NCBI GenBank assembly: GCA_963969395.1
Contig: OZ017801.1
Coordinates: 14,327,611-14,391,610 of the forward strand
DNA length: 64,000 nt
Direction: 5' to 3'
From: Pseudoscleropodium purum
Taxonomy: Eukaryota; Streptophyta; Bryopsida; Hypnales; Brachytheciaceae
Shown: positions 1,859 to 64,000 of the stretch, piece by piece
How the letters are laid out: every line of letters starts with the position of its first letter
How positions within the stretch are numbered: the first letter of the stretch is position 1
The notes under the pieces: model-generated
What the model was told of the DNA's origin: nothing
Database searches by the model: none
Seen by the model: the letters and a program-made list of their open reading frames with translations, nothing else
Position numbers and translations under genes: made by a program

Positions 1859-3590
1859 CTGCATCAGTTTAAGTAAGGTTGCGGAGATGAGATTTGCGTC
1901 CAATTAAGTGAAGGCAAAGAAAAATGTCATTGCTAGCTAGCTCTAGTGTCTTACCAACTTACAATCGACGGTTGCATAAAAGAAATGTAAGCTTAGGGTA
2001 CGAGGATCCGACAGATCGGATCTGATCCTCAAATTCTCATGATCGAACATCTCTGATCTTCTCCAAATGATCGTCTCGATCACTGGATCACCATTCATTC
2101 ACGTACAATCTTCGATTCGCACTGCATCTGCTGCAACACTAGCTGATCGAAAGAGAGTCATCAGAATTAACCTAGTTAATCCCAGAAGTCCAATCGCTCT
2201 AACTTCCCAAAACAGTAAACTCTGACAAGACTTTAGCATAACATCGCAACCACATCAATTGATTTCCGGCAACTTAACAATGCACTTAATTACCAAGTGA
2301 TTGATCGAGGCTCCTAGCTAGCTTGTCTATCAACACTGTTCCTCGTCCGCAACGAATAAGCTGAGTGTCTAGCAACATCATACCTGGGAGTCTAGGATGC
2401 AGCTAGAAAACACTGGAAATCAGTTTTAGACGGGGCAGTTCTGAAGCCAGTCGAAATTAGATCGTCGATAAACAAAATGCACTTTAGAGTACTAACGCCT
2501 TGGTACACCTTCGGCATTCAACACGCTTGAAATGCAATTGACATCATTGAGGTCTATGCTAGAAGAATATACGTAGAACATTTCAACACAAGGCTAGGGA
2601 ATAGTTCTACCATAGCAATCAAGTACAAGTGCAGAAGAAGGATAAGATTCTTACTTGAACTTTTGGAAGCGTACGTTAACTTTATAGTCTCTTTGAGCAA
2701 ATAATAATGATGAGTGATGATTGTCTCATCACACGACAAGCTTACTTGTGTCTGTGTGTTCAGTATCTTTGTCTTATGAGATTGGACTATCAAAGGTACT
2801 CAGACTGTTTGTATTAAATTTCAAAAAATAAAAATAAAATTGTAAATCATGAAGAATCAATTATTTTCTTTACATGTTAAATATCATTATAATTTTATAA
2901 CTTTTCATAATATTAAAATTGATAAATTTTCACAAAATGTATGAATTATTTTAAGATTATTGAATTCAAATGATATTAATACACACAAAAACATAAAAAA
3001 TTAATCATTCTATATTAAATGAAAAAAATTGATCATTTTATTATAATTGAACTGTTAAAAAACATACAAGCCATCTGAGCACCTTTGACAGTCCATTCTC
3101 ATACGTAACAAAGTTACAAAACACAACACACATACTATCACATTATTGTGTTTTGAAACATACATCATCCTGACAACAAAAAGATCACTATCAGTACAAA
3201 AGAAGTTGCGGCATTATCTTAACTAAACCACGAATAACTAGTTTTCAAATGTAGAATATATCACAAATAGATGATTGCATTATCTAACAAGATCAAACTG
3301 TTACCAAACAAATGTTGTAACATTCAGCTAGTGCCGTTGGTTAGTTGCAATCGGCAACATATCTTATAAAGAAAATCAGTCAGTTCCGTTTCAGATTTGA
3401 ATCCAGCAAGTGAGTGTAGCTAGAAAGCTAGTACTTCAGTTCTGACAAGAACTTACTTACGATCGTTACGCTGGTCACCGTGTCTGTGACGCACACGGCG
3501 TCGTGAGCCAGTGAGGATCATCTTCACCAAGCTAGTCATCAAGTGCGCATCATGAATGTGTTGCTCATGAGACCCAGGGCAAGCTAGCAA
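1859..3590. other. intergenic, no gene recognised
   Basis: The stretch holds many CTAGCTAG-type tetranucleotide runs, also common upstream of the GRAS gene, and an AT-rich patch around 2815-3060. No open frame with recognisable motifs was found on either strand. Confidence 0.4.
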
Positions 3591-5806: not shown

Positions 5807-8800
5807 GGGAGAGGCTCCCCGCCGGCTCCCCTTGCCCGTGTCTTCTGTCCGTCTGGGCATCGTCGTGGTGGTCGTCGTCTCGGCAGGCCTTTTGCTGCCC
5901 GGCTGGGGCGGCCGTCTCGCAAGCCTTGCGACGAAGTAGTAGCCCCATCACCAGTTAACTTAGCTACCTACCTACCTACGCATTCAAGGTAGTCTACGTC
6001 ATGCCCCGCCTTTAACATGAAAACGTGCTCGCGCTGTCCCAGTCTGTATGTGCCGTGACGATGTATAGCCGGAGGCCGTCACTAGATGGCCGGGTTACGT
6101 TGCTAGCTAGCTTCACGTATCTCGCGTGCGCTCGCGTTTGTGCAAGTTAGGTGACTTTGAGACTTTATTGTTATTGTGACTGAGACTAGGAAAAACTTCG
6201 ATTGCCCAGGCGTGATACGTGGCACGGCGAGGTTTTCTGTTTGGCCGCTACAGATTAGATGCTTGCTCCCGAGTTCTGTACTGAATCGCTGGATCGGATC
6301 GTTTGGAAGTAGGTCATCCTTCTGCGCATGCTGGAGATCACTTGATCATCAATGTAAGACTCGACCTAGCTAGTCTAGTCGCACCTAGTTTCCGATTGAG
6401 CTTTACCACGTGCATGCAGCAGCTAGTGGTGGAAAAAAGGTGTGATTTGATGTGGCTCTGTGCTTTGCAATTCGTCGTTAGAATCGCATCAATCCGCAAG
6501 ATGGAAGAATTTTGAGACTTTTCGTGATTTGGGGTGAAACTGTCAATGGCGCAAAATGCATTTTTTATCTCCCCAGCCTCGGTGATACCCAACCGTATAA
6601 GCATCTGGAGTTGTCCTTGCGAGTGTGGTTCGTTTTGGCGGCGGGCTGAGTGCCTTTTGTAACTAATAATTGCGAAAGATCGATCTCATGAGCCTATTTG
6701 ATTAGAATGGTATCAGTTCGATCAGTTTGTCGTTGCGGAACTGACGGAGCTGTGAAGAATATGTGTTGCTAACGATGACGGATGTGAGCGAGCTGTGCAG
6801 GAAATTGTTATTCTCACTAGCAAGCTGGTGCTCTTTAATTACATCAGGCGTTCAATTAGGGTACTCATCTTTCCCGGATCTAGAGGCTGTGAACCGGGAC
6901 TCTCGGATGTAACGAAGATCGAGCTACAATCACAATTGGCTATGCAATACGGCAGGTGAGTAATGCAGCTCCGCCTCTTGTTCATTCCTGACCCACTGCT
7001 GAAAGAATATCTGTTGATAAGAAACGCGTGGTCACTGATTTACTGGCCTGGTTGGCTTCACAGTACTGGGCATAGTTGATCGAGTTGCTCATCTGAAACA
7101 TTTTCGTGCGTGATGTATTTCTATTTAGAGACCTGGATATTATTTGTCAGTAAGTGATTTTTATGGTATTCGTGACGTTGGTGAGCGTGAGCGAACTAGG
7201 TCGTAAGCCAATTGCTATCAACCTCGCATTCGTTAAAGTGGCGCAGTTTCAGTCGACCGCCTGGAACCTCAGATCTACATCAGTCGCAGTTCTGAGAGCT
7301 CTGGCCCTGGGCACGTGAACGTCACAAGTCACAACTTTGACAGTTCGGCGATCTGAAACTCGCCATCTTTTTTATAAATATGAGTATCGATCAGCTTGTA
7401 ATTACCTGCATTCCCACACTAATTAGAATAACTAAAGGAATTTTCAGCCAACTGAATAAGTGCAGTTTCGGTGACTGACGAAGGTCCTGTTAATGGCTAA
7501 GGTCATGATTTTGTCTCATGCAAACCTACTGCAGAAGTTTCTGAGTATGTGATCTGTGACGAGTACTCTTGAATGAGCTGAAGGTGGTTTAAATTGACTT
7601 GACGCCTTTTTATCGCGAAATGGATGCCTAATGTATTGAGGGAGACTGCTAGTCTGTAGTTCCAAGATTGTGAGAGGCAGTCCTCGGAATGCTTTGAAGA
7701 TCCATGATCCGGCGCGGGCTTCAAGCTGATGTGCTATTTGAAAACCCCCTTGAATTACAAATCCTATAGAGTAGAGAGAAAGAGGTTCGTGATACGGTTG
7801 GAAGTGCTGCTAAGCTGGGCAAGCTATTGGCTGCCCCACTTAGGGTTCAATCAAGAATTTATGAAAGAAAGTTACGTAGGGGTTAATCTCAATGACCTTT
7901 GTTTTTTTGAAGTACTCTATGGTCTTCCAGTTAGAGGTACATTGTAAAGTGAACCCCGCCTTACGCTGCTCATTCTCTAGCCTTCATTCTCTATGGTATA
8001 CCTGGTTTGTGCTGCTAAATTTGATTTCCGACAGTTGTAAAAATGGCAGACAGAAGCATGATATCACATAATTGTCAAGCACTTGTCGTGATGAGTCCAG
8101 GCCTTCCATTAATCTTCCAACTTGATTTGCCTGTGAATTAGATTATGTTGATTCGCTTGTGATGAGCTTCAGCTTCAGCTTCTCCATGCAACCATGAACA
8201 GATTGGAAAGAAAGATGTGTATAAGAGCATTATACGTCGAGATGCAGACGTCGAAGCATTTTAAGGACTAGTTCACGAGCTCCAACAATAGTTCCATGTG
8301 CGAGAGGTTTCACTATTCTCTTCCCCAACTCTCAACCAGGTATCATGGTGAAGTATGCCAACTGACGATCGATTCACACATCGCATTTATTAATATAATT
8401 GTCAATACCAGTTAGTAATAAATCGATTCTTTAATGTTATCAATGTCGTTCTTTTGACATCTTGAGTGATGACTGACTGTGCTGTCAGAAGTAGTCCGTG
8501 AAGGACTTTACTATTATCACGTTAACTGAGAGTCCATTACAGAATTTGCTTATTTAAGTCTTATGTACGTCAATTACTTTGAGATGACTGCTCTGCACTC
8601 AAAGCACGTGCTTTTAGTTATTGCGTCTCAGTTGGATTGATTGATATATTTCACTGAGCTGGGCTAGCTAGCTTGATCCACATACTCTGGCGGTGTAGCT
8701 AGAATTTATTCGTTCTTCCTTTTGTAGAGATATTGTTCATAGAGCTGAATTATTTGCTCTTACAGGATCATGAATGATGGGCTTCAGGTTGACTAACTGT

Positions 8801-9469: not shown

Positions 9470-12051
9470 ATGGTAAGTGTGAATTACGCATGTTGTACTT
9501 GACACTGAAGTGGTGAACGTCTTGAGAACAGAATGAACCAAATTAACCTTCGAAGTTGTTTTCTAATATGACTAATTCATGCGAGCTGTATGTTGCGTGA
9601 TGAACGTACTTACAGGACGAAAATGCCTGGACGGGGACGACAGCAGCCGGGGCGGAGGAGCTGCTGGTCCTGTTTGCGAACGCCATCAAGAACCGCAACC
9701 GCGTGGTGGCGAAACAGGCGCTGCAGGCGCTGCAGAAAATCTCCTCCCTGGACGGGGAGCTTCCTAGTGAGCGCGTCACCGCCTTCTTCCTCCGGGCGCT
9801 CGTCCTGCGAGCCGGCTCTTTGCTGCACGACCGCAACCTCATTCTTCCAAAAGAAGACCGGGACGAGGAGGAGGACGACGACGACGAGCTTCAAATGCAG
9901 GATCCTCCTCATCGTGAGTATTACTTACTCGTCCCTTTCACGCTCTAAAATGCATAGCCATATTCGTTAAAATTAAACGTCTAGGTATCGTGAAATTAAG
10001 TAAAACCTCGTTATGAGAAATAACCTGGATCTTAATTCCATAAAGGGGTTGTGCAGTCACGTTATCGGGCATAACCTTAACTGTTGGATCCTGTTCCTGT
10101 TCAGACATGCACAATCAAAGTCTCAATTCTAAAAAGGTACAATGCATAACGTTGAAGGAACTGCACGTTATAATTAATATCCTTCTCGATCCTTATCCAA
10201 TGAGCGATCGTAATCTGTGTAGAAATGGGCTCTATTGAGGTTATGGCGTATGTGCCGAGCTGAGGTTCCAGTCAGGCAACTGGTCAACTGCAGCTATTTC
10301 TCTGAAATCCACCATTTTGACGAAAAGTTCCTGCCAATCTCTAGAATGGTCATAATCGTTACAATGAATGAACGTGGTAACATGAAAGTAGAACCTCGTT
10401 CTCAGAAATAACATGCCATAGATTTTAAATAATTAAGTAGCAATATAACCGGACATAATCTCAATGACTGAATCTTGTTCAGTCATGTTGAATCAAGGGT
10501 CTAAGAAAGGCACCATACTTCGAAACTAACCTCATGTTTTGGAAAATAACATGTCTCTCCGTATGAATGATCACCATCCATATAGATATGGGCTCCCGTG
10601 AAGTTATGGCATACGAGTTTCAGGTTTCTGAACCTTCAAGTGCGCAGAGCTCTAAACACTAGCACTTGAATAGATCTGAAGTTCCAGGCACGCAACTGAG
10701 ACTGCGAAAGCTCTCAATGATATCCCGCCATTTTGACGAAAAGTACCTTCTAAGCCCCAGAATGGTCAAATGTAATCGTTGAAATGGTGTGTTACAGAGT
10801 GTCTTACATTAAAGTGCCTAGAGCTCTACAAAATAGGACTGTAGAGATTGGAAGTTTCTGTCAGATAACTGAAACTGCTCTGAAATCCGCCATGCTAACG
10901 AGTATATATATATAGATGAGGTTCAGACATCCATCTTAATTCCATGCTTCTGGCTGATTCCGCGCTTTCTCTGACATGAAACGAAATTGAAGGCTTTGAG
11001 TGCTAGAGCCTTGACGCTTATCTCTGTCTCTGTGGTATCAATATTGACAGAAATGCAATGGGCGGAGCGCTCGCTGGGCTTCAACGAGCTCACAAACCTG
11101 GTGGACATGACTCCGTTCTACCGCTTCGGCTTCGTGGCCGCCAACGGCGCCATCCTGGAAGCTTTCGAAGGCATGGACCGCGTGCACATCCTCGACTTCA
11201 GCACCTCCCACTGCATGCAATGGCCGACTCTCATCGACGCTCTCGCCGATCGCATGGACGGCCCCCCTCACGTCCGTCTCACCGTCTCCACCTGCGCACT
11301 TCCCACTCCACCCCGCTTGCACCCCACTTACGAAGACATTGGCCACCGTCTCACGCTCTGGGCTCGTGAGAAGGGCGTCCCATTCGAGTTTCACCTCCTC
11401 TCGCTCCCCTTGGAGTCTCTCCGCGTCACCGACATGAACCTCCGCGACGGAGAATCACTCGCCATCAACTGCAACCTCCGTCTACATTCCCTCGCAGACG
11501 AAACTCTAAACGAGAATATAGACATCACCAACACGCAACAGTCTTTGTGTCCCCGGGACAACTTCCTGCAACTCATCAGCGTGCTCAACCCGGTTGTGGT
11601 GACGATCTACGAAGAAGACTGCAACGCGACGTCCACGGATCTGGTATCCCGTCTGACTGAGAGCTATAACCACGAGTGGATCCCTTTTGATTACCTCGCG
11701 ACGTACGGCAGTCGTGGGCGTCACGAGCATGAGCGCGACGTCGGGGAAAGGATCGAGAATGTGTTGGCTTGTGAAGGCGTGGAGCGGATCGAGCGGTTGG
11801 AGTCGAAGGTAATGTGGTTGCAGAGGCTGAGGAGGATGCACTTTCGGAATGTGGCTGTGAGTGAGGATGTGACGGCCGCGTTAAGGGAGATCGTTGGGGA
11901 TTATGCGGTGGGGTGGGGAGTCAAGCTGGACGAGGATGATGTGCAGATTCTGTCGTGGAAGGGACATAGCTTCGCGTTTGCTAGTGCGTGGGTGCCGGTG
12001 GCGCCTGTCGGCTCTAATCCTCTCAAGCTTAGCTACTTACACTTACAGTGA
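9470..12051 (+). CDS. SCL32: GRAS transcription factor, SCARECROW-LIKE 32 type
   Basis: Nuclear GRAS-family regulator. Exons in my model: 9470-9472 (the ATG alone, before GTAAGT), 9616-9913 and 11051-12051, giving 433 aa. Donor GTGAGT (9914) and the acceptor ending GACAG (11050) keep frame, a codon being split C|AA. Residues 2-100 carry the first leucine-rich region (EELLVLFANAIKNRN, VTAFFLRALVLRA) and then an acidic Asp/Glu run. Exon 3 holds the VHIID motif as VHILDFS at about residue 145, followed by THCMQ-like SHCMQWPTLIDAL, then PFYRE- and SAW-like parts ending WKGHSFAFASAWVPV at about 403-417. The order and wording match SCL32 proteins, which lack the DELLA motif. GRAS proteins act by protein-protein contacts in the nucleus; the target here is unknown. 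The start is inferred: no ATG in exon 2 precedes the conserved region. A truncated duplicate of its 3' end lies directly downstream. Confidence 0.88.
10001..10905 (+). repeat. diverged tandem repeat inside GRAS intron 2
   Basis: Two long diverged units, roughly 10001-10388 and 10389-10800, share AACCTCGTT...GAGAAATAAC, ATGGGCTC...GAGGTTATGGC and CCATTTTGACGAAAAGT in the same order. A third, partial unit (about 10811-10905) repeats the end of the motif series. The array fills most of the 1137-nt intron 9914-11050. No function is evident; it is an intron-length expansion by tandem duplication. Confidence 0.7.
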
Positions 12052-20800: not shown

Positions 20801-21408
20801 CTTTTTTGTTCCACTTCACTATTGATTGTGTTGTCAGGATAAGGTCTATAAATACGGTGTGTTCAAATTTAACACCACCGCTACTTCTGATGAATGTATG
20901 ACAGATTGGGAACTGCGTGGGGGCGAACAATCACAGACACTTCCTACTCTTCTTGCTGTTTGCAACTGTGAGTGGCCTCTATGTGTTGACGATGTCGATC
21001 TATGTGGGCTCAAAAGTCTGGCCACAGTTGTTCAACTTCCGTCGTGTTAAGAATTTCCCTCGGCTGCATTCTGTGGTGAGCTTCGATGTTGTTATGGATG
21101 TGTTAGCCATACTGTTAGCAAGCCTGGAACCAGTAGCCTCAGCTCGTGCCTTTGCATTGATCTATCTGTGTATAGCATCCTTGTCACTTGTGATCGGAGT
21201 TGGTCTCTTACTTTACCATCAGGTGCAGCTCGTCTATACTGGTGAAACTTATATAGACTCACTTACTCCAGGTGGAGGGGGGAAGGGTAGGAGGAGAAGC
21301 TGGGCTAACTTCAGAAAGTTGTTTGGCATGCAGCATCCGTTTCTTTGGCTTCTTCCAAGAATCAATGCAAGATGTGTTTTACCTCCTAGAAAAATTCATG
21401 CAACTTAG
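17870..21408 (+). CDS. PAT11: DHHC protein S-acyltransferase, PAT11-like
   Basis: Membrane enzyme that attaches palmitate to cysteines of target proteins. Exons 17870-18092, 18750-19048 and 20905-21408 join in frame (donors GTGAGC and GTAAGC, acceptors TGTAG and GACAG) to give 341 aa, close to the usual PAT11 length. A Cys-rich N-terminus carries CWGC (13-16) and CGWC (31-34), as in PAT11 proteins. Transmembrane segments lie at about 60-80 and 85-110. The DHHC cysteine-rich domain runs FCVYCKTPKPPNAHHC, then LDMDHHCPF with DHHC at 169-172, and continues IGNCVGANNHRHF across intron 2. Two further membrane segments follow (about 184-207 and in the 250-280 range), with TGETYID standing where other DHHC enzymes have a TTxE-type motif. 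The start is the first in-frame ATG; an AG directly before it leaves open an upstream exon. The compartment is not shown by the sequence. Confidence 0.9.
19049..20904 (+). other. intron 2 of the PAT11-like gene
   Basis: An 1856-nt AT-rich intron begins GTAAGC and ends ATGACAG. It separates DHHCPF from IGNCVG. No internal gene is recognised; an 83-codon open frame on the minus strand near 19.95-20.18 kb has no known motif. Confidence 0.8.
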
Positions 21409-29905: not shown

Positions 29906-30735
29906 TTAATCCCTAAATGACCAAATTACATTTTTTGGCTACATAGAAATTTTGGGCACATGCATATGACTAGAGATTTCTATATTTTTGGCCCAAATCC
30001 TAGTAGAAGGTGGAGACAAGGAATTTCTTTCTTATGCACTAGATTTCATGACATTTGGAAATAGGAGTCAAAAGTTATAGCCTAATATGTTATTTTTTTC
30101 ATAATTGGGCAATTTGGGTAGATAAAAAAAATCATTTTTTTCAGATACAAAAATTTGAAATTGGTTTTTTAGAGTTGTATATACATAGAAAGATTTGAAT
30201 CATTCCATTTCAATCAATGAGTCAAAAGTTATGAAGATTTTTTGTTTGTAAGCAATATAGATTTTCTACCATAAAATGAACTTTGAAGTCTTTTATTTAA
30301 CTCAATTTTCAATATTTTGTGGAAAAGAAAATCATAGGATGTAGATTGCTTACTACAAAATTCTAATTGGAACCAACATTTTTCAATTCCGTAACTAATT
30401 TCTTAGCAAATTAGTATTTTGAATCATTCTCTACTTCTTTCTACTTACTATTTTTTTTTAATATATTTTACAATTCCAAATGATTTGAAATTTTTCAAGC
30501 ATGTAGCCAACTTATCTTAAAGAATGAATCCAAAGATAAACCTCCAATTTAGACATTTTTTCATACAAATGTTACCTTGAAGAGTGCAATTGCTAGATCC
30601 AAACACTAATATTTTGTAGTATATATGCAGTAGAAGTTTTTGAAATTTTTTCCACATCCTCTCAAACTAGCATACTACAAGAGCCTATGGTTACATATGT
30701 CCAAAATTGTTCTTTCTCTAGAATTTGTCATAGTA
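29906..30735 (+). mobile_element. family A element, 3' end eroded
   Basis: It starts TTAATCCCTAAATGACC and follows the family A series through CTACTTCTTTCTACTTACTA, TTTTCAAGCATGTAGCC, CATACAAATGTTACC and CTACAAGAGCCTATGG. The usual closing GGTTAA is not found. It belongs to the subfamily with GGGCACATGCATATGAC and GAAGGTGGAGACAAGGAA after the start. Confidence 0.75.
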
Positions 30736-31273: not shown

Positions 31274-31491
31274 GAACTTGAATGCTTTTTGAACCTCCTA
31301 CCTTAGGGATTGATTGGTTGAATTGCACTTTTTTATACATTTATCATCTACCAAGTGAATGGTTGAGCATTCAGGGGTTAAGAAAAATTGTAGGGGACAA
31401 GTATCAGGTTGTTAACTTTGTATGCACTTTTTTTCTAATATCCTACTTTGGTACTTCTATGCACAATAATCCAAATTGTAACACATAGTAG

Positions 31492-32423
31492 TTAACCCTT
31501 CAAGGATCGGATTGCATTTTTTGACTATATAGAAATTTTGGGCAAGCCATTGTGACCACAAATTTGCATATTTTACACTGAAATTTTATTATAACGTGTG
31601 GACGAGGAATATCTTTCATACACAACAAATTTCATGACATTTGGAATTAGAAGTCAAAAGTAATAGCCTAATATTTTACTTTTTTTTGTAACTGAGCAAT
31701 TTGGATAGATTAAAAGAAATCACTTTTTTCAGAAACCAAAATTTGAAATTGGTTTTCTAGACTAGTATATACAAGGAAAAACTTTGAATCATTCCATTTT
31801 GATCAATGAGTCAAAAGTTATGAGGATTTTTTGTTTACAAGCAATTATGAACTCCCTACTCTAAAATAAACTTTAAAATCGTTTATCTTATCCAATTTTC
31901 AATATTTTGGAAAAAATAAAATCCTAAGATGTAAATTGTTTGTAACAACATTTCAACCATTAGGATTGCCATTTTTCAATTCCATATTTAAATTCTTAAT
32001 AATTTAGTATTTTGAATCATTCTCCACTATTACCTATTTCCTATTTTTTTTTCCTATATGTTGTACTATTCCAAATGATCTGATAAATTTCAAGCATTTG
32101 GCTAACTTGTCTAGGAAAAAAATCTAAAGAAGCACCACCATTTTGATCATTGTTCATAGAAAAGTGACTTTGTGAAGTGTAGCTGCCCAATTTTTTGGAG
32201 GGTTGAAAAAAAGATTTTGGTGAATTTGAATGCTTATATCTTACGATCCACGTGGTGGAATTTTCTAAACTTATTACCACATGTTTTAAAGTCATCACAC
32301 TACAAGATCCTTCAGTTGCATATGTCAAAAATTGTTTTTTTCCAAAAATTTAGTAGTTGTACTAGAAATGGCAGTTTTGGAGCGTTCTGGGTGATTACAT
32401 AGTCGTGAAGTTTTAGGGGTTAA
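31492..32423 (+). mobile_element. family A TTAA-flanked element, complete
   Basis: Starts TTAACCCTTCAAGGATCGG and ends GTTTTAGGGGTTAA, 932 bp. It contains the full family A series and the GTGTGGACGAGGAATATC subfamily marker. No intact coding frame. Confidence 0.82.
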
Positions 32424-42703: not shown

Positions 42704-43637
42704 TTAACCCCTAAAGGCCCAAGGTATGTTTATTTTACAACATAACTTTTTTGGGCATGTGCATGTGAGCAGAAATTTCTTTATTTTTGGCCCAAAATTT
42801 AATAGAAGGTGTGAACAAGGAATATCTTTTATGTGCACTAAATTTAAAGGCATTTAGAAATATGAGTCAAAAGTTATGACCTAATATTTATTTCTCAACT
42901 TGGGTAGTCCGAGCATATTTGAAAAAATCACTTTTTTCAAAAATGAAGTGTGAAATTTGAAATTAATTTTTTAGCTTTATATATACATAGAAAGCTTTTA
43001 ATCATTCCATTTTGATCAATGAGGCAAAAGTTATGAAGCGTTATAGTTTGCAGGCAATCATGGATTCTCTATTCCAAAATAAACTTTGAAGTTCTTAATT
43101 GAACTCAATTTTCAATATTTTTGAAAAAAATAAAAAATATTGGGTGAATATTGTTTATTACAATATTACAACCCTTGGGATTGTCATTTTTCAATTTCAT
43201 AACTAAATTCTCAACAATTTTGTACTGTTTTGATTCATTCTCTACTTCTTTCTACTTACTATTTTTTTCCTATATATTGTACAATTTCAAATGATCTTAA
43301 TTTTCTCAAGCATGTATCCAACTTGTTTTGAAGAATGAATCCAAAGAGTTGCAAGCATTTTGGACATTTTTTTATACAAATGTGACCTTGTGAAGTGCAA
43401 CTGCTTGATTTTTTGCGAGGCCCAAAACAATCTTTTTGTCAATTCAAACACTAATATCTTGCAATCTACACAGTGGAAATTTCTGAAAATTTTCCACATC
43501 TTCTAAAATTATCATACTACAAGATCCTATGGTTGGATGTGTCCAAAAATGATTAAATTTTTTTTGATACTTGTCCTAAAAATGGCAGTTTTGGAGTGTT
43601 TTGGGAGAAAGCGTAGTCAAAGAACTTTAGAGGTTAA
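42704..43637 (+). mobile_element. family A TTAA-flanked element, complete
   Basis: Starts TTAACCCCTAAAGGCCC and ends CTTTAGAGGTTAA, 934 bp: inverted ends of about 13 bp with one mismatch. It contains the full family A series. Good reference copy of the GTGTGAACAAGGAATATC subfamily. Confidence 0.85.
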
Positions 43638-57116: not shown

Positions 57117-57347
57117 TTAACCCTGTAAGGACAGGCCAGTCTCCACTGAAATCATCATTTTGTAATACCGTGGGAATCAATAGCTTAAAAAAATGGAAAA
57201 ATAGTCATTGGAAGTCAAACTACTGTAGAAGAAGTCCCCTTTTCACAACAGAACATGGAAGATGAATAGTTGCACTTCTGTCCAGTATAGAGGAATTCTC
57301 CATCATCCATCGAATACTTAGTATCCACGGTGGTCTTATAGGGTTAA
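57117..57347 (+). mobile_element. family D TTAA-flanked MITE, copy 1
   Basis: Starts TTAACCCTGTAAGGACAGG and ends GTCTTATAGGGTTAA, 231 bp. Its interior (ATACCGTGGGAATCAAT, ATGGAAAA, GAAGTCAAA, TGTAGAAGA) is shared with the copy 200 bp downstream and with 13676-13916. Confidence 0.88.
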
Positions 57348-57545: not shown

Positions 57546-57788
57546 TTAACCTTGTAAGGACAGGCCAGTCTTCGAAGAAATCGTCATTTTCCGATACCGT
57601 GGGAATCAATTGCTTAAAAAAATGGAAAAGTATTCTTTGGAAGTCAAATTATTGTAGAAGATGTTCCTTTTTCACTACAAAACTCCGAGGATGAATAATT
57701 GTACTTTTGTCTTACATAAGAGAATTCTTTATCATCCATCGGACACTTGGTGTTTGCGGTGGCATTACCGGGGGCATTATAAGGTTAA
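57546..57788 (+). mobile_element. family D TTAA-flanked MITE, copy 2
   Basis: Starts TTAACCTTGTAAGGACAGG and ends GGCATTATAAGGTTAA, 243 bp, same orientation as copy 1. Differences are mostly single bases, plus about 12 extra bases near the right end. Confidence 0.88.
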
Positions 57789-58249: not shown

Positions 58250-58596
58250 ACTTTGTACCGTTGTAACAACCAAAGTAGAAGTAGAAGTCATTTTTTCATT
58301 TTTTCATTTATAAAAAAATGAAAATTCAATATCTTTTAAATTGTATGTCCAAAGGCTAGGAAATAGGCACAAAGAAATGGAAGGGCTTTGATTTGTGGCA
58401 TTTGAACAAAGGATGCAAAATTTATTTATTTTTTAAAAATAGAATAATTTCATTCTATTTTTTAATTCATAAGAACTTTGAAATTCGATAACTTTCAAAC
58501 CATAAGTCCAATTGTCACAAAATAAAGTGCATGCACCCTTCGTTGCCAAGAACTTTCAAGGAGTTCCAAGAATATTGTTGTACATCTTTTAGTTTG
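58250..58596 (+). repeat. repeat family C, copy 3
   Basis: GTACCGTTGTAACAACCAAAGTAGAAG, GAAAATTCAATATCTTTTAAA, AACTTTGAAATTCGATAACTTTCAAACCATA and AAGAACTTTCAAGGAGTTCC follow the family C order. It abuts the start of a family A element. Confidence 0.65.
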
Positions 58597-58802
58597 TTAA
58601 CCCCTAAAGGATTGGACTGCATTTTTTGGTTGTATAGAAATTTTGGGCAGGTACTTGTGGCAAGAGATTTTCATATTTTAGGGTGAAATTTTAAGAGAAG
58701 GTGGGGACAAGGAATATCTTTCATATTCACTAAATTTCAAGACATTTGGAAATACAAGTCAAAAGTTATAGCTTAATATGTTACTTTTTTATATATATAA
58801 TT
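58597..58802 (+). mobile_element. 5' fragment of a family A element, interrupted
   Basis: Starts TTAACCCCTAAAGGATTGG and follows the family A order (ATTTTGGGCAGGTAC, GGTGGGGACAAGGAATATC, AAAAGTTATAGC) for about 200 bp. It then stops abruptly at an AT run, where the sequence changes character. The rest is expected beyond the right edge of the window, on the other side of the retroelement. Confidence 0.7.
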
Positions 58803-60483
58803 TGTCATGTTAATCAATGGTGGGTGGTTGGTAGGCTCTGTAGAGCATGTTGTAGGCTTAGTATTGTCAAAATGGCCATGTATTGGTCATTGGGGGCCTA
58901 TACTAGAGTTTTGAGACTGAAGGAAGTGTGAACGGAACTATTTGGGGGCTCCTTTGGGGTGGTTGTAACCCTAGGCCGCCCCTTTGCTCCTCCACTCTCT
59001 TCAAGTCTTGCATATGTGTGTAGTTTATGAATTGATAGGAATTGGAGCATGGATATAATGATGATTGGTTGTTATACCAATCTTTACTAGTGTTATTCCT
59101 TGATTCATCTCGTTTTGCAAGACCAATCCAATTGAGACAAAGTAGAAGCTATCTTGGAGTGTTAGGGAAGCTTATTACTTGAAGAGAGTGAAGGAGGTGC
59201 TGATGTGAGAGCACTAGAGTTGTTAGAGAGGTTTGAATTGCTGTATTAGGGTTGCTAGCATTGGTGGTAACGTGCGGAAACGCTGGCAAAATCAAATCTT
59301 GGAGCTTTGGTGTTGGAGGTGCTGATGTTGAGGTGGAGGGTGTTGGAGGTGCTGATGTTGAGGTGGAGGGTGTTGGAGAGCTTCCAAGGGTGACAAGAAG
59401 ATCTAAGAAGAAGCTCTTTGATGTAAGAATTCCATAAAGACAAGTTTCAAGCAATTCCGACACTTTTTGCAAAAGTTGTGTGAGTTTAAGTAGAGTGGTG
59501 AAAACCCTCATGTGTGCTGGACCAAACATGCAAAAGTGCTGATTTGGGGTTTTGAGGGTCATTAGGGTGACTTTTTAGTGTTATAAACATTAGAAGTTGT
59601 AGTATCCCCAAAACTGTAAAATTGTCGAAAACCGTCAATTTTTGAAGAAGTTATGGCAGTTTGAAGTTTTGGAGTTGAAGCCTTGTTTTGAGAGGTGTTT
59701 TGTGAGGTTTGTTGACGTTGTTCAAGCTTTGATAGCTTCGAAGAACGAGAGAGACGAAGACCGGTTGACTTTTGATAGTTACCGGACCATTTACTAGAGT
59801 AATTTTGAATATTACTGGATCAATTATCGGGGTAACTTTTGGAAGTTACTAGGGTAGTTATTGGGGTAATTTTGAAAGTTACCAAGGTAATTTCTTGGAT
59901 AACTTTTGAGTAGTTTTTGAAAATTACCACAAATTATTTTAAAAAAAATTTTAAATTTTAAAAAAATTTAAAAAAAAATAAAAAAATAAAAATAATAGTG
60001 GTAATTCCCTATTATATTAGGGGCTGATTTTAGTTTGGAGGTGTAGAAGGAGGCCATTTAGAGGGGTTTGGAGGGCTATTAGTGGGTTACAAATTTATTG
60101 TTTGTAATTGTGATGCCCTAGCCTATTTTGGAGACTTTCTTTTATGCTTTGTGCATCATTGTTGTTGCGGGCAGCGTGGGTTACACCATTGCTTAGCTCC
60201 ATTTCTTGTTGTGGTGACGAAGTGGGAGTTGTGACCCACATGGTCGAGACTTGCTTGTTCTCATGGTAAGGCTGGAGTTATGACCAGCAGACCGTGATTT
60301 TGAAGTTTAGGATCCATTTTCACCGATGGTATCTCGTGGAATGCCGTCGGTTCCACCCGTCCTATATTCCATGGTTTTCTTATCCCTACCTGGATACTTG
60401 AACCAATCTAGAGCCTCAACAGGATAGACCAACGGGGAGCAGTTTGACGGTGGTATAGAAGATTCGACATTCGAAGGTCGTTT
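58803..60483 (+). other. probable 5' LTR and leader
   Basis: No coding sequence. It includes an exact 30-bp tandem duplication (59311-59370), a stretch rich in GGGGTAACTTTTG-like repeats (about 59780-59935) and a purine-rich AT block at 59930-60000. The LTR end and primer-binding site could not be fixed by eye; the 3' LTR needed to define them is outside the window. Confidence 0.5.
59311..59370 (+). repeat. exact 30-bp tandem duplication
   Basis: Two identical units, each TGTTGGAGGT-GCTGATGTTG-AGGTGGAGGG, at 59311 and 59341, with a partial third start at 59371. They make spurious repetitive open frames on both strands. Confidence 0.97.
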
Positions 60484-63000
60484 ATGGTTCAAACACGGAC
60501 GCGTGACTACGCTGCACATGAAGACCAGGAGGTCGCAGTTCACGTTGAGGAGGACAGAGAAGAGCCAGCTCTACCCTCTGTGAGAGTTGATCCCCTTAAG
60601 AGTTGGAGAATTAGCGTTTTTGACGACATGGAAGACCATAATGGTGGATCCATGGTTCGTGACCGCTACTCCGGAAGAGCTGAGGGTGTGGCCTTCAATG
60701 ATTGGAAGACCAGGTTTCGATCCTGGCAACGCACACAAAGACAACGCAATGCTCTTTTCAATGATTGGTGGGCTTTTGAGCAGCTACCCACCTATCTTGA
60801 GTTTGAGGCGTTGCAAGCCTATGATTCTTGGTTTGAGGATCATAGGGTTGAGCTTGAAGAGGTGGAAGACTATTGGGCTTGAAGGGTGGAGTTAGTCACG
60901 GCGTTGAAAGAGGGAGCTGCATTCCCAGCAACTCAAGCTTGAAAGACTAGTGATGGAGATGAAGAGAAGGGCGAGGAAGCTACCTCGGGCCCTGATGCAG
61001 CATGAGCTATGCGGTTGCTTTCTAAAGCTGCTACGAGTGGCGCTAGTGGGACTGCAACTACATTCATCTCTCGGTTGGCTCGAGCTTCAAATGAGGCAAT
61101 AGCCACGATGGGCCCTCCTCCTCAGTTTGATCCACTCCGATTGTTTTTTGAGCATTTGGAAATGGGGTTTGGAGGCATTCGCCGCGATCGCATGCGCCAC
61201 ATCCAGGATTTCAAGAAAGAGACTGGAGACACTCCCCGTATTATGTATGCAAGACTCTCCAAGTTTGCTCGTGAAAGCGGAGATGCATTCACGGAACGCC
61301 AGTTGGTGGAGCTTTATATGGGGAAGCAAGACAAGAAGATTCGTGATATGGCACACCTTCACATGTTGTTGGCATATGGAGGTCGAGCTACTTTAGCTCA
61401 AGCTTTTGCTATTGTGGAGCAATTGGATCGAGGGCTATGTGTAGAGGAGGCTGGAAGATTGTCATCCATTATGACTTCAACACCCAGCCAGACCAAGATT
61501 GTTGTTGGTAGTTCTAGCAAGAGCCAAGGGAACCCCAAGGCCTCCAAGCAAATTGCTATGGCAGCTGAAGTGGAAGTGACAACCAATTCTCGTATGCGGT
61601 GTTGGAATTGTGGATTGCTAGGCCACGGAAAGAGAGATTGTCCTACAGATACATCATCTGAGGGTAAGAATGGTGGGCAATCAGTTACCAACAAGGGCAA
61701 TGCAACCACAACAAATAGAGGCCCACAAAAGAAAGTACAAGGTGGAGGAACACCTCCAAAGTGCACTTATGCACCTTGTAGTCGGGTTGGTCATACGGAG
61801 GACAAATGTTGGGTGAAGAACCCGCAGTTGAGGCCTCAATCTTTCACCCCACAAGGTGCTCAAGGGGGTGGATCAAATTCTGGGGGCAATAATCTTGAGG
61901 CACGCATGGGAGAGTTGCAAAATACCCTAGCATTGCTTGTTGCAGTGACAGCAAAGATCACACCAGTTCCTTCTAATTCAAAGCCTGGACCAGATAGGTT
62001 TGAATATGGAGCACTTGGTGAGGTGGTTGCAGTGGTGGCTACGAGATCACAAGCCAATTCTTTGCCAGTTGCACCCATGGTAGAAGGAAACTCAACTACT
62101 CCAGGTGGGCCTCATGTGTGTCACCAAGGGCCTCCTGATAGTATTGGGCAATCAAGATTGCCAATGACATTTGGCTTGGCAGATGTGGTGACTAGTCCAT
62201 CACTTGGAGCTAGCCCTGATGGAAGAAATTTCCCCGTAGAAAAAGACATGATGGTGAAGAGTTTGGTTGTTAAACTCTTGGAAGTCCCATTGTTTTCAGG
62301 GGTTCAGTTGCAGAGCGACAACTTTGATGCAGCTGCCGTACATCATATGGCAGGGAAAATAATGCAAGGAACGGTCCAGATGCCTGCCAATGTGGCCATG
62401 AGGGAGATGGAAGAGTCTTCTTTGGCTGAGGGTGATGTGTGCACAAGGAAGGATGCTGCTAAAGAAGCAGCGAATGCCTTGCGATGTTGGAAGGGGTGGC
62501 TAAAAGAACCTCCTTCGCAAGCAGAGTTTGATAGCCACTTGAATTCAAGTGGAGAAGCTGTTGAAGTTGCCACAAGCTATTTGGCAACGGTACCAGCTCG
62601 TGCAACTCGTGAACGCTTGCAAGTCAAGCCTGGAGTGGTGCGTTTGGCCAATTCTAGCCATGTCTTTTCTGTGGCTCGAGGTGAAGCACCTCAAGTGTTT
62701 CCACAAAAAGTATTGCTTGATATGGGAGCCCAACCAGTCATACTAGGCAAGTTGCTAGCTCAGAGTTTGGGGCTTCTTGCTAGTGACTTGGAGCCATGTC
62801 CTTTCACCATAGCAACATCGCTAGGGGGCACAGAGCAGCCTACGGGGATGACAAAAGAGCCCCTACGACTTCGGTTCAAGGTGGGCACTGATGCGTACAC
62901 TCACATCTCTGTGAGGTGTGTTGTAACAAGTGCTACGAGCTATGACATTTTTTTGGGGCAGCAAGTTTTGTACCCCATTGGTTTTGGTTATGATTCTTAG
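60484..63000 (+). pseudogene. retroelement Gag and protease region, with in-frame stops
   Basis: Gag forms the particle coat and binds element RNA; the protease cuts the polyprotein. The frame opens MVQTRTRDYAA at 60484, a start like those of plant Gag proteins. Capsid-like helices follow (DFKKETGDTPRIMYARLSKF, QLVELYMGKQDKKIRDMAHL), then a classic zinc knuckle, CWNCGLLGHGKRDC, at 61600-61641 (C-x2-C-x4-H-x4-C), and a second, unusual one, CTYAPCSRVGHTEDKC, at 61762-61809 (C-x4-C-x4-H-x4-C). The protease core is VLLDMGAQPVILG with the catalytic Asp at 62719-62721; the usual DTG/DSG is DMG here. A later SYDIFLGQQVL matches the conserved second half of such proteases. In-frame TGA at 60880, 60940 and 61003 and TAG at 62998 break this copy, with no frameshift. 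The longest open part is 61009-63000 (663 aa). Confidence 0.85.
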
Positions 63001-64000
63001 ATTGAGGAGGCATGGTTTCGATCAGGGTGGTTACAAGGAGATGGATGGAAGGAGGTGATTCCCGTCATCTTTGGAGCTTTTGCTGGCGTGGTTGAGGGAT
63101 TGGTGGCAGTGTATGGGTGTGTTGCAGAGTGGTTGGCAACCGGAGATTTTCTACTGGAGGGCAACATGTCTACTATAGACTCGCCTCTAGAGTTAGATAC
63201 GCCAACACAAGGCAAAATCAACTCATTTGTAAGACATCCCAAGGATCCCATACCACCATGGATTTCACCAAAAGCTTTGGCTGAGAAATGCCATGAATTA
63301 GTGGAGAAAGTAAACCAGCAGCTATGGCAACCACAACACACACTACCACCTCTACAACAACTGGTAGATCTTTCTGATGATTCTAAGGACATAGTTCTTG
63401 TGGAACTATTTGCTGGACTTGGTACTGGTTTGGCTGCAGTTTTGGAGGCATGATTGTCTATACAAAGTTATACTTATGTGGACAACAACATAGTGGTGAG
63501 CAGAGCTGCAAAACATCATTTAGACCAGTTAAGAATGAAATATCCAAAGCAACTACCTGCAAGCACTATTCAAGGTTGTATGTCTCAAGTTCCTTCAGAC
63601 ATTGCCTTGATTGGAGAAGAAGATCTTTTGAGGTTGGGCCAAGTGGACCTTGTGATGGCTGGATGGCCTTGCCAAGGGCATTCCCGGGCTGGTTCTCGCC
63701 AAGGACTCCAAGACCCACGATCAAGTTTATTTTGGGAGCTCTTACGGTTGTTGCATTGGTGGCAATGTAGACAAACTACAAGTGTGGCTTATGTTCTTGA
63801 GAATGTGCCTCTATTGGGAGATGTTGGAGCTCAAGTTCATGAGGATGCACGATTGGTATGTCAGCACCTTGGTCAGCTAGTGGCAGTGGATGCTGCAGCC
63901 CTTGGTTCTTACGCCCATCGTTTACGGTGGAAGTGGACCAATTTGGCTCATATGCGAGGGATTTCTGTGGTAGTACATCGCATTAGTCGTCTCGAGGGCA
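63001..64000 (+). pseudogene. C5-cytosine DNA methyltransferase domain in the retroelement polyprotein
   Basis: Transfers a methyl group from S-adenosylmethionine to C5 of cytosine in DNA. It is in the same frame as Gag-protease, separated only by the TAG at 62998. Motifs in canonical order: I, VELFAGLGTGLAAVLEA (63409-63429 covers FAGLGTG); a YVDNN acidic strand; IV, MAGWPCQGHSRAG with the catalytic Cys at 63670-63672; then GLQDPRSSLFWELLRLL; VI, VLENVPLLG with Glu-Asn-Val at 63799-63807; VIII-like, YAHRLRWKWTNL at 63910-63942. The linear order differs from plant DRM enzymes, whose motifs are permuted, and the HRxR...W.N wording recalls DNMT3. A TGA at 63451 cuts the domain between motif I and the acidic strand. 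Motifs IX-X and the end lie outside. The 63001-63360 linker, with PRHPKDPIPPW-like FVRHPKDPIPPWIS, has no recognised domain. Confidence 0.85.

Follow-up and report, generated by a model that had tools for sequence, protein, structure and literature searches.

Retroelement frame at the right end of the window

The right end of a 64,000-nucleotide stretch of DNA (hereafter the window, to which positions refer unless another sequence is named) carries the left half of a dead retroelement copy. A single plus-strand frame, running from the ATG of Gag at 60484 to the window end at 64000, codes in turn for Gag, a pair of zinc knuckles, an aspartic protease, a linker and finally a C5-cytosine methyltransferase (Table 1); the latter is cut by the window end, with approximately the first two thirds of the domain encoded. 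The initial annotation of this stretch had joined Gag, zinc knuckles, protease and methyltransferase in one reading frame. They do share the same frame, free of insertions, deletions and frameshifts, but this frame is not open: it contains five in-frame stops, three of them in Gag, one directly after the protease and one between methyltransferase motifs I and IV, and its open pieces measure 144, 664, 150 and 182+ codons. The protease active site is DMGA, as opposed to the D-T/S-G-A of four relatives described below (L001, P0066, P0070 and P0071). Because of the five stops together with the altered active site, the window copy is dead and cannot itself give rise to an active enzyme. That the element is nevertheless more than a chance assembly follows from the 664-codon open stretch and from one collinear tblastn match to an independent element, L001.

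The Pfam profile of the methyltransferase matched the window strongly, whereas those of the zinc knuckle and the protease matched weakly; unlike in the window, the protease profile PF13650 passes the cut-off in P0070 and P0071. An Rfam scan of the window gave no match. Methyltransferase motifs I, IV, VI and VIII stand in canonical, unpermuted order, in agreement with the initial annotation, and in L001 the canonical order extends through motifs IX and X.

Table 1. Features of the window element and neighbouring genes, with the evidence for each.
Feature	Positions	Strand	Evidence or remark
Split GRAS gene	9604-12048		PF03514, E 1.2e-74 and 5.1e-7
DHHC domain	20902-21405		PF01529, E 5.9e-11
Putative 5' long terminal repeat (LTR) and leader	58800..60483	+	Between dispersed repeats (matches end near 58790) and Gag start
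Two leader hairpins, 5-bp stems, 8-nt loops AGTTGTGA and AGTTATGA	60222..60288	+	
Gag, with three in-frame stops (60880, 60940, 61003)	60484..61599	+	tblastn of L001 Gag, E 2e-47 (60484-61164); P0067 and P0068 homologous
Two CCHC-type zinc knuckles	61600..61809	+	Pattern match and translation; PF00098, E 0.008 (below cut-off)
Zinc knuckle 1, CX2CX4HX4C	61600-61641	+	
Zinc knuckle 2, variant spacing CX4CX4HX4C	61762-61809	+	
Retroviral-type aspartic protease	62605..62997	+	PF13650, E 0.019 (below cut-off); 71-73% identity to P0070/P0071, 58% to L001
Protease active site, altered	62719-62730	+	DMGA
Protease-methyltransferase linker, starting with in-frame stop 62998	62998..63384	+	44-50% identity to P0070/P0071, 32% to L001
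DNMT3-like C5-cytosine methyltransferase, motifs I-VIII, with stop 63451	63385..64000	+	PF00145, E 3.1e-12
Methyltransferase motif I	63409-63429	+	Canonical order
Methyltransferase motif IV	63661-63684	+	Canonical order
Methyltransferase motif VI	63799-63810	+	Canonical order
Methyltransferase motif VIII	63916-63942	+	Canonical order

A complete relative and the stop before reverse transcriptase

The complete order of the element, which the window displays as far as the methyltransferase, is found in L001, a contig of 9285 bp filed under a 'Synechococcales cyanobacterium' metagenome-assembled genome (AVDCRST_MAG81). The Gag-protease-methyltransferase part of L001 is collinear with window positions 61066-63990 over 985 aligned positions (42% identity, tblastn E 0.0). 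Downstream of its methyltransferase follow reverse transcriptase (RT; PF00078, 4.3e-31), RNase H (PF17917, 1.8e-38), integrase (PF17921, 9.6e-18, and PF00665, 1.2e-13) and a PHD finger (PF00628, 4.3e-10). This succession of RT, RNase H and integrase is that of Ty3/gypsy elements. The natural reading of L001 is that of a eukaryotic contaminant, and it may itself derive from a Klebsormidium. The contig begins and ends with the same 127 nt, consistent with an assembly graph in which the LTRs were collapsed and the path closed into a circle. As a side observation, the AVDCRST_MAG81 bin is probably contaminated, since its record contains a eukaryotic retrotransposon contig.

The PHD finger (L001 6459-6593) forms the integrase C-terminus and matches PHD fingers of CHD4, UHRF1 and KDM5 in the PDB at 3e-14 to 1e-11; several PHD fingers of this group bind unmodified H3K4. 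No chromodomain was found in L001 at E 0.1, its place at the integrase C-terminus being taken by the PHD finger, so that L001 does not classify as a chromovirus.

Protein searches yielded further relatives. The methyltransferase piece of the window matches 65 metagenomic proteins at E <= 0.001, with up to ~80% identity, and seven of these 65 also match the protease-methyltransferase linker. The Gag-protease piece matches six metagenomic proteins, the best 7998 candidates by common words having been scored; three of the six (P0066, P0070 and P0071) contain the protease, while the other three stop short of it. The open reading frame (ORF) of P0066 ends within the linker, and the two relatives whose ORF runs past it, P0070 and P0071 (715 aa each), carry protease and methyltransferase in one ORF. 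Together with L001, these two proteins bear out the earlier proposal that the methyltransferase belongs to the retroelement, its place being between protease and RT. The flank of L001 homologous to the missing right flank of the window holds the expected RT, RNase H and integrase, so that neither of the two checks set out in the initial annotation overturned the proposal. The link between methyltransferase and RT itself comes from L001 only, since a protein search with the part downstream of the methyltransferase returned the query as its sole match. Scanning of genome contigs gave three loci, namely L001 and two bacterial-type methyltransferases (L002 and L003). Four scans of viral contigs gave no retroelement relative, only six methyltransferase loci (L004-L009, all from one scan) not checked for a protease, and a plasmid search with P0071 gave no match.

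These relatives bear directly on whether a host or bacterial/phage methyltransferase might have become fused to retroelement remains by chance, as the broken frame and the right flank missing from the window, along with bacterial and phage enzymes that equal DNMT3A in their match to motifs IV-VI, would allow. Protease and methyltransferase are, however, joined in P0070, P0071 and L001, which fall into two separate well-supported clades (see below), and the window-L001 alignment is collinear. Such a fusion is therefore highly improbable, joining by chance being refuted by L001.

In L001, the Gag-protease-methyltransferase ORF comprises 1346 codons and ends with UAG, after which RT to PHD finger continue in the same frame for 1047 codons. 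The context of this stop (3489-3497) is UAG CAA UCA, of the tobamovirus type; tobamovirus readthrough needs CAR YYA after UAG, and a rice gypsy element has been named as a readthrough candidate (PMC2754532). By base composition alone, a CARYYA context would be expected with a chance of about 1 in 500, an estimate applied here to one case. The protein P0064 ends exactly at the residue of the L001 stop, whereas P0056 continues for 37 residues after its last aligned residue, against 41 remaining in L001, and P0071 for 54, against 29; P0051 is rearranged near this position and adds little. Since P0064, P0056 and P0071 end near the L001 stop, the stop separating methyltransferase from RT seems to be conserved, with the methyltransferase on its Gag side. 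To judge from its context, the L001 stop is probably leaky.

Taken together, the window feature is best explained as the left half of a dead Ty3/gypsy-type copy, in which Gag, zinc knuckles, protease and a DNMT3-like cytosine methyltransferase are followed, after a stop, by RT, RNase H, integrase and a PHD finger. We assign a probability of roughly 0.85 to this explanation as a whole, including the mode of expression and the role discussed below; within it, the identity and gene order of the element appear close to certain. In the initial annotation the element was called an LTR retroelement; no second LTR was detected within the window, neither direct repeats, self-BLAST nor alignment with L001 set the 5' border, and no primer-binding site was identified. 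The window leader has a weak nucleotide likeness to the L001 LTR/leader, mainly in an A-rich tract. L001 likewise has a leader hairpin (8446-8463) with a 5-bp stem and an 8-nt loop, GTTCATGA, although its stem sequences are unlike those of the window hairpins. These candidate hairpins are possibly a packaging signal, for which no significance is claimed.

Family, conservation and genomic setting of the methyltransferase

By sequence and by predicted fold, animal DNMT3A/3B are the best relatives of solved structure, with DNMT3A as the best PDB sequence match of the window methyltransferase (E 3e-6) and motif VIII, HR.R..W.NL, common to both families. The structure predicted for the L001 enzyme reached a mean predicted local distance difference test score (pLDDT) of 80.7 and a predicted template modelling score of 0.84, compared with mean pLDDT values of 57-75 for the other four models. 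Its Foldseek search returned just DNMT3 entries among the best 50 matches, and a second fold search returned DNMT3 entries and a few bacterial CpG/HhaI/HaeIII enzymes; structure alignment to DNMT3 gave ~24% identity. Outside the PDB, bacterial and phage C5 methyltransferases score as high as DNMT3A over motifs IV-VI, and NCBIfam offered no match besides the general Dcm family, which stayed under its cut-off. DRM identity, in which motifs VI-X precede I-V, is ruled out by the canonical order, DRM chains scoring 28-34 bits against 60 for DNMT3. No chains named DNMT1/MET1 or CMT occurred among the PDB matches listed (49, 50 and 55 sequences), a listing that does not exclude them. Motif order, motif VIII and predicted fold indicate a DNMT3-like enzyme. 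Compared with DNMT3A/3B, the family of the window and L001 has PCQ instead of PCN in motif IV, shows no PWWP or ADD domain among the domains found, and is fused to Gag-protease. Bacterial and phage enzymes matching the family in motifs IV-VI include those at L002:9677-11080 and L004:7748-9265.

Between window and L001, identity amounts to 58% in the protease and 55% in the methyltransferase, which aligns with no gap over 203 columns, as against 32% in the linker and 35% in the spacer preceding the protease. With P0070 and P0071, the window shares 71 and 73% identity in the protease, the same 71 and 73% in the methyltransferase, and 44 and 50% in the linker, respectively. At the DNA level, compared for window and L001 only, differences at codon positions 1/2/3 were 0.35/0.26/0.60 in the protease and 0.42/0.28/0.60 in the methyltransferase, as against 0.57/0.49/0.57 in the 82-codon linker; third positions approach saturation, and the two sequences are unlike in base composition (GC 0.48 and 0.55). 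Because protease and methyltransferase are about equally conserved, while the linker, serving as internal control, is not, the methyltransferase appears to have been kept like the protease.

In alignment A2, 22 columns are invariant over 11 rows, including C345 (PCQ), E388 (ENV) and H427/R428 (HR.R), which places the catalytic motifs among the most conserved columns. This pattern, like the conservation of the methyltransferase on a par with the protease, speaks against the domain being a passenger, i.e. a structural or nucleic-acid-binding part of Gag-Pol in which catalysis is not selected. The passenger explanation could draw on enzyme activity being predicted only and on the inactivity of the SymbioLINE and KnitGypsy enzymes in a yeast test (PMC5890265), but we consider it improbable.

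The methyltransferase tree comprised 34 rows, 33 from the family and one DNMT3A fragment filling less than half of the columns. P0045, P0046 and the DNMT3A fragment form long branches; two clades were used, and not the root or the DNMT3A placement. The first clade (11 rows, support 95/99) includes the window, P0070 and P0071, the second (17 rows, support 100/96) includes L001, and more distant rows lie outside both. Since the protease-methyltransferase joint occurs in both clades, the capture should be older than their split, unless it happened twice.

As to the setting, the SCL32-type GRAS and PAT11-like neighbours of the initial annotation stand at the level of their domains, GRAS and DHHC having been confirmed nearby (Table 1). 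Among eukaryotes, GRAS proteins are a family of land plants and advanced streptophyte algae, and the genome of Klebsormidium nitens is GC-richer than the window. The suggestion that the element resides in another streptophyte lineage is plausible. To the left of the element, repeats about 80% alike lie at 57117-57343 and 57546-57772, and at 58596-58790 with 29929-30103, 31491-31685 and 42749-42893 (dispersed/tandem).

The ratio of observed to expected CpG is 0.76 in the gene-bearing first 22 kb (1-22 kb), drops to 0.20 at 22-58 kb and stands at 0.42 in the element, GpC being 0.98 and 1.10 in the latter two; the element is thus less eroded than its surroundings. CpG depletion with GpC near 1 indicates long-standing methylation across the right two thirds of the window. 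The extreme depletion at 22000-58000 coincides with 30% GC, and its contrast with the first 22 kb marks an abrupt boundary between an unmethylated and a methylated domain.

Such CpG values are pertinent to a further alternative, namely an enzyme native to the element that serves the host or acts chiefly on DNA other than the element's newly synthesised copies. Its targets would be rival elements, DNA viruses entering the cell or, as a form of self-restraint, chromosomal copies of the element itself. Self-restraint via slowed transposition (PMC5890265) and defence against DNA viruses (PMC6338049) have both been proposed, and the CpG depletion of the window element implies that such copies do get methylated. 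Yet the surrounding 36 kb is even more depleted, so that host methylation alone explains the loss, and the Gag-side position would point to packaging in the particle rather than to a free nuclear enzyme. We regard action on other targets as rather unlikely, if still worth weighing.

Possible role and comparison with known elements

For the role of the enzyme, we tentatively favour methylation of the element's own complementary DNA (cDNA), although as its main role this has somewhat less than an even chance. With a leaky stop, most ribosomes would produce Gag-protease-methyltransferase and some would read through to the full polyprotein, so that the methyltransferase would be made and packaged in Gag-like amounts. 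The protease would then free the enzyme in the particle, where it would place CpG methylation on double-stranded cDNA before or at integration, and new copies would enter the genome premarked like host heterochromatin. The cDNA-methylation idea was put forward by de Mendoza et al., based on DNMTs in Pol of DIRS elements (PMC5890265); its packaging step is strengthened by the methyltransferase lying on the Gag side. By analogy with the chromovirus chromodomain, at whose site it stands, the PHD finger suggests integration guided by histone state. It is unlikely that all this amounts to a widespread and old plant retrotransposon lineage, present in land plants, with a write-and-read kit in which a Gag-dose methyltransferase methylates cDNA CpGs and a PHD integrase reads histone state.

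Retroelement biology has yet to explain why a genome parasite should write the mark by which it is silenced, and the 2018 report concerned one charophyte and one dinoflagellate genus (PMC5890265). The 65 methyltransferase relatives, at least two supported clades and a Gag-frame enzyme conserved like the protease suggest, in a testable manner, that the enzyme works in the particle.

The precedents named in the initial annotation, in Klebsormidium and in dinoflagellates, are as stated there (PMC5890265). The closest is KnitGypsy-Dnmt3 of Klebsormidium nitens (de Mendoza et al., 2018; PMC5890265), likewise an LTR Gypsy element with a DNMT3-related methyltransferase in its polyprotein, intronless, with key residues kept and motifs not rearranged as in DRM. 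The accessible text of that paper, compared here without its figures, locates the DNMT within the ORF of the Pol polyprotein and nowhere uses the words gag, protease, PHD or readthrough. By this description, the element of the window and L001 differs by a DNMT that is read in the Gag frame, downstream of the protease, and in the case of L001 also by the UAG CAA UCA stop that comes after the DNMT and by a PHD-finger integrase. The setting of the window element, with GRAS and DHHC genes and in a stretch of 30-48% GC, distinguishes it as well. SymbioDIRS-Dnmt3 and SymbioLINE-Dnmt of Symbiodinium are also retroelements with cytosine methyltransferases, those of the DIRS elements being of the DNMT3 family and active in yeast, but they are tyrosine-recombinase DIRS or LINE elements instead of LTR/integrase ones and are described as independent acquisitions (PMC5890265). 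An orchid Ty3/gypsy element similarly captured a nucleic-acid-modifying enzyme, in that case an AlkB-like N6-methyladenosine (m6A) demethylase, which is a different enzyme and occupies an additional ORF of a 25-kb element (PMC9289625).

Streptophyte elements have been called LTR Copia (PMC12344493) as well as Gypsy (PMC5890265), and the order in L001 is that of Gypsy. Methylase-bearing transposons have been stated to be absent from land plants (PMC6338049), a statement that falls if the host is a land plant. The literature covered, which takes in few subscription papers and no preprints, showed no LTR element with a cytosine methyltransferase from any land plant, and no comparable element with a PHD finger on its integrase. 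The DNMT-bearing Gypsy kind is already known from KnitGypsy-Dnmt3, and the window probably adds a new host lineage to it. Relative to the published text, although not to the Klebsormidium figure, three things are apparently new: a copy with GRAS and DHHC genes as neighbours, a methyltransferase on the Gag side of a tobamovirus-type stop, and a PHD finger.
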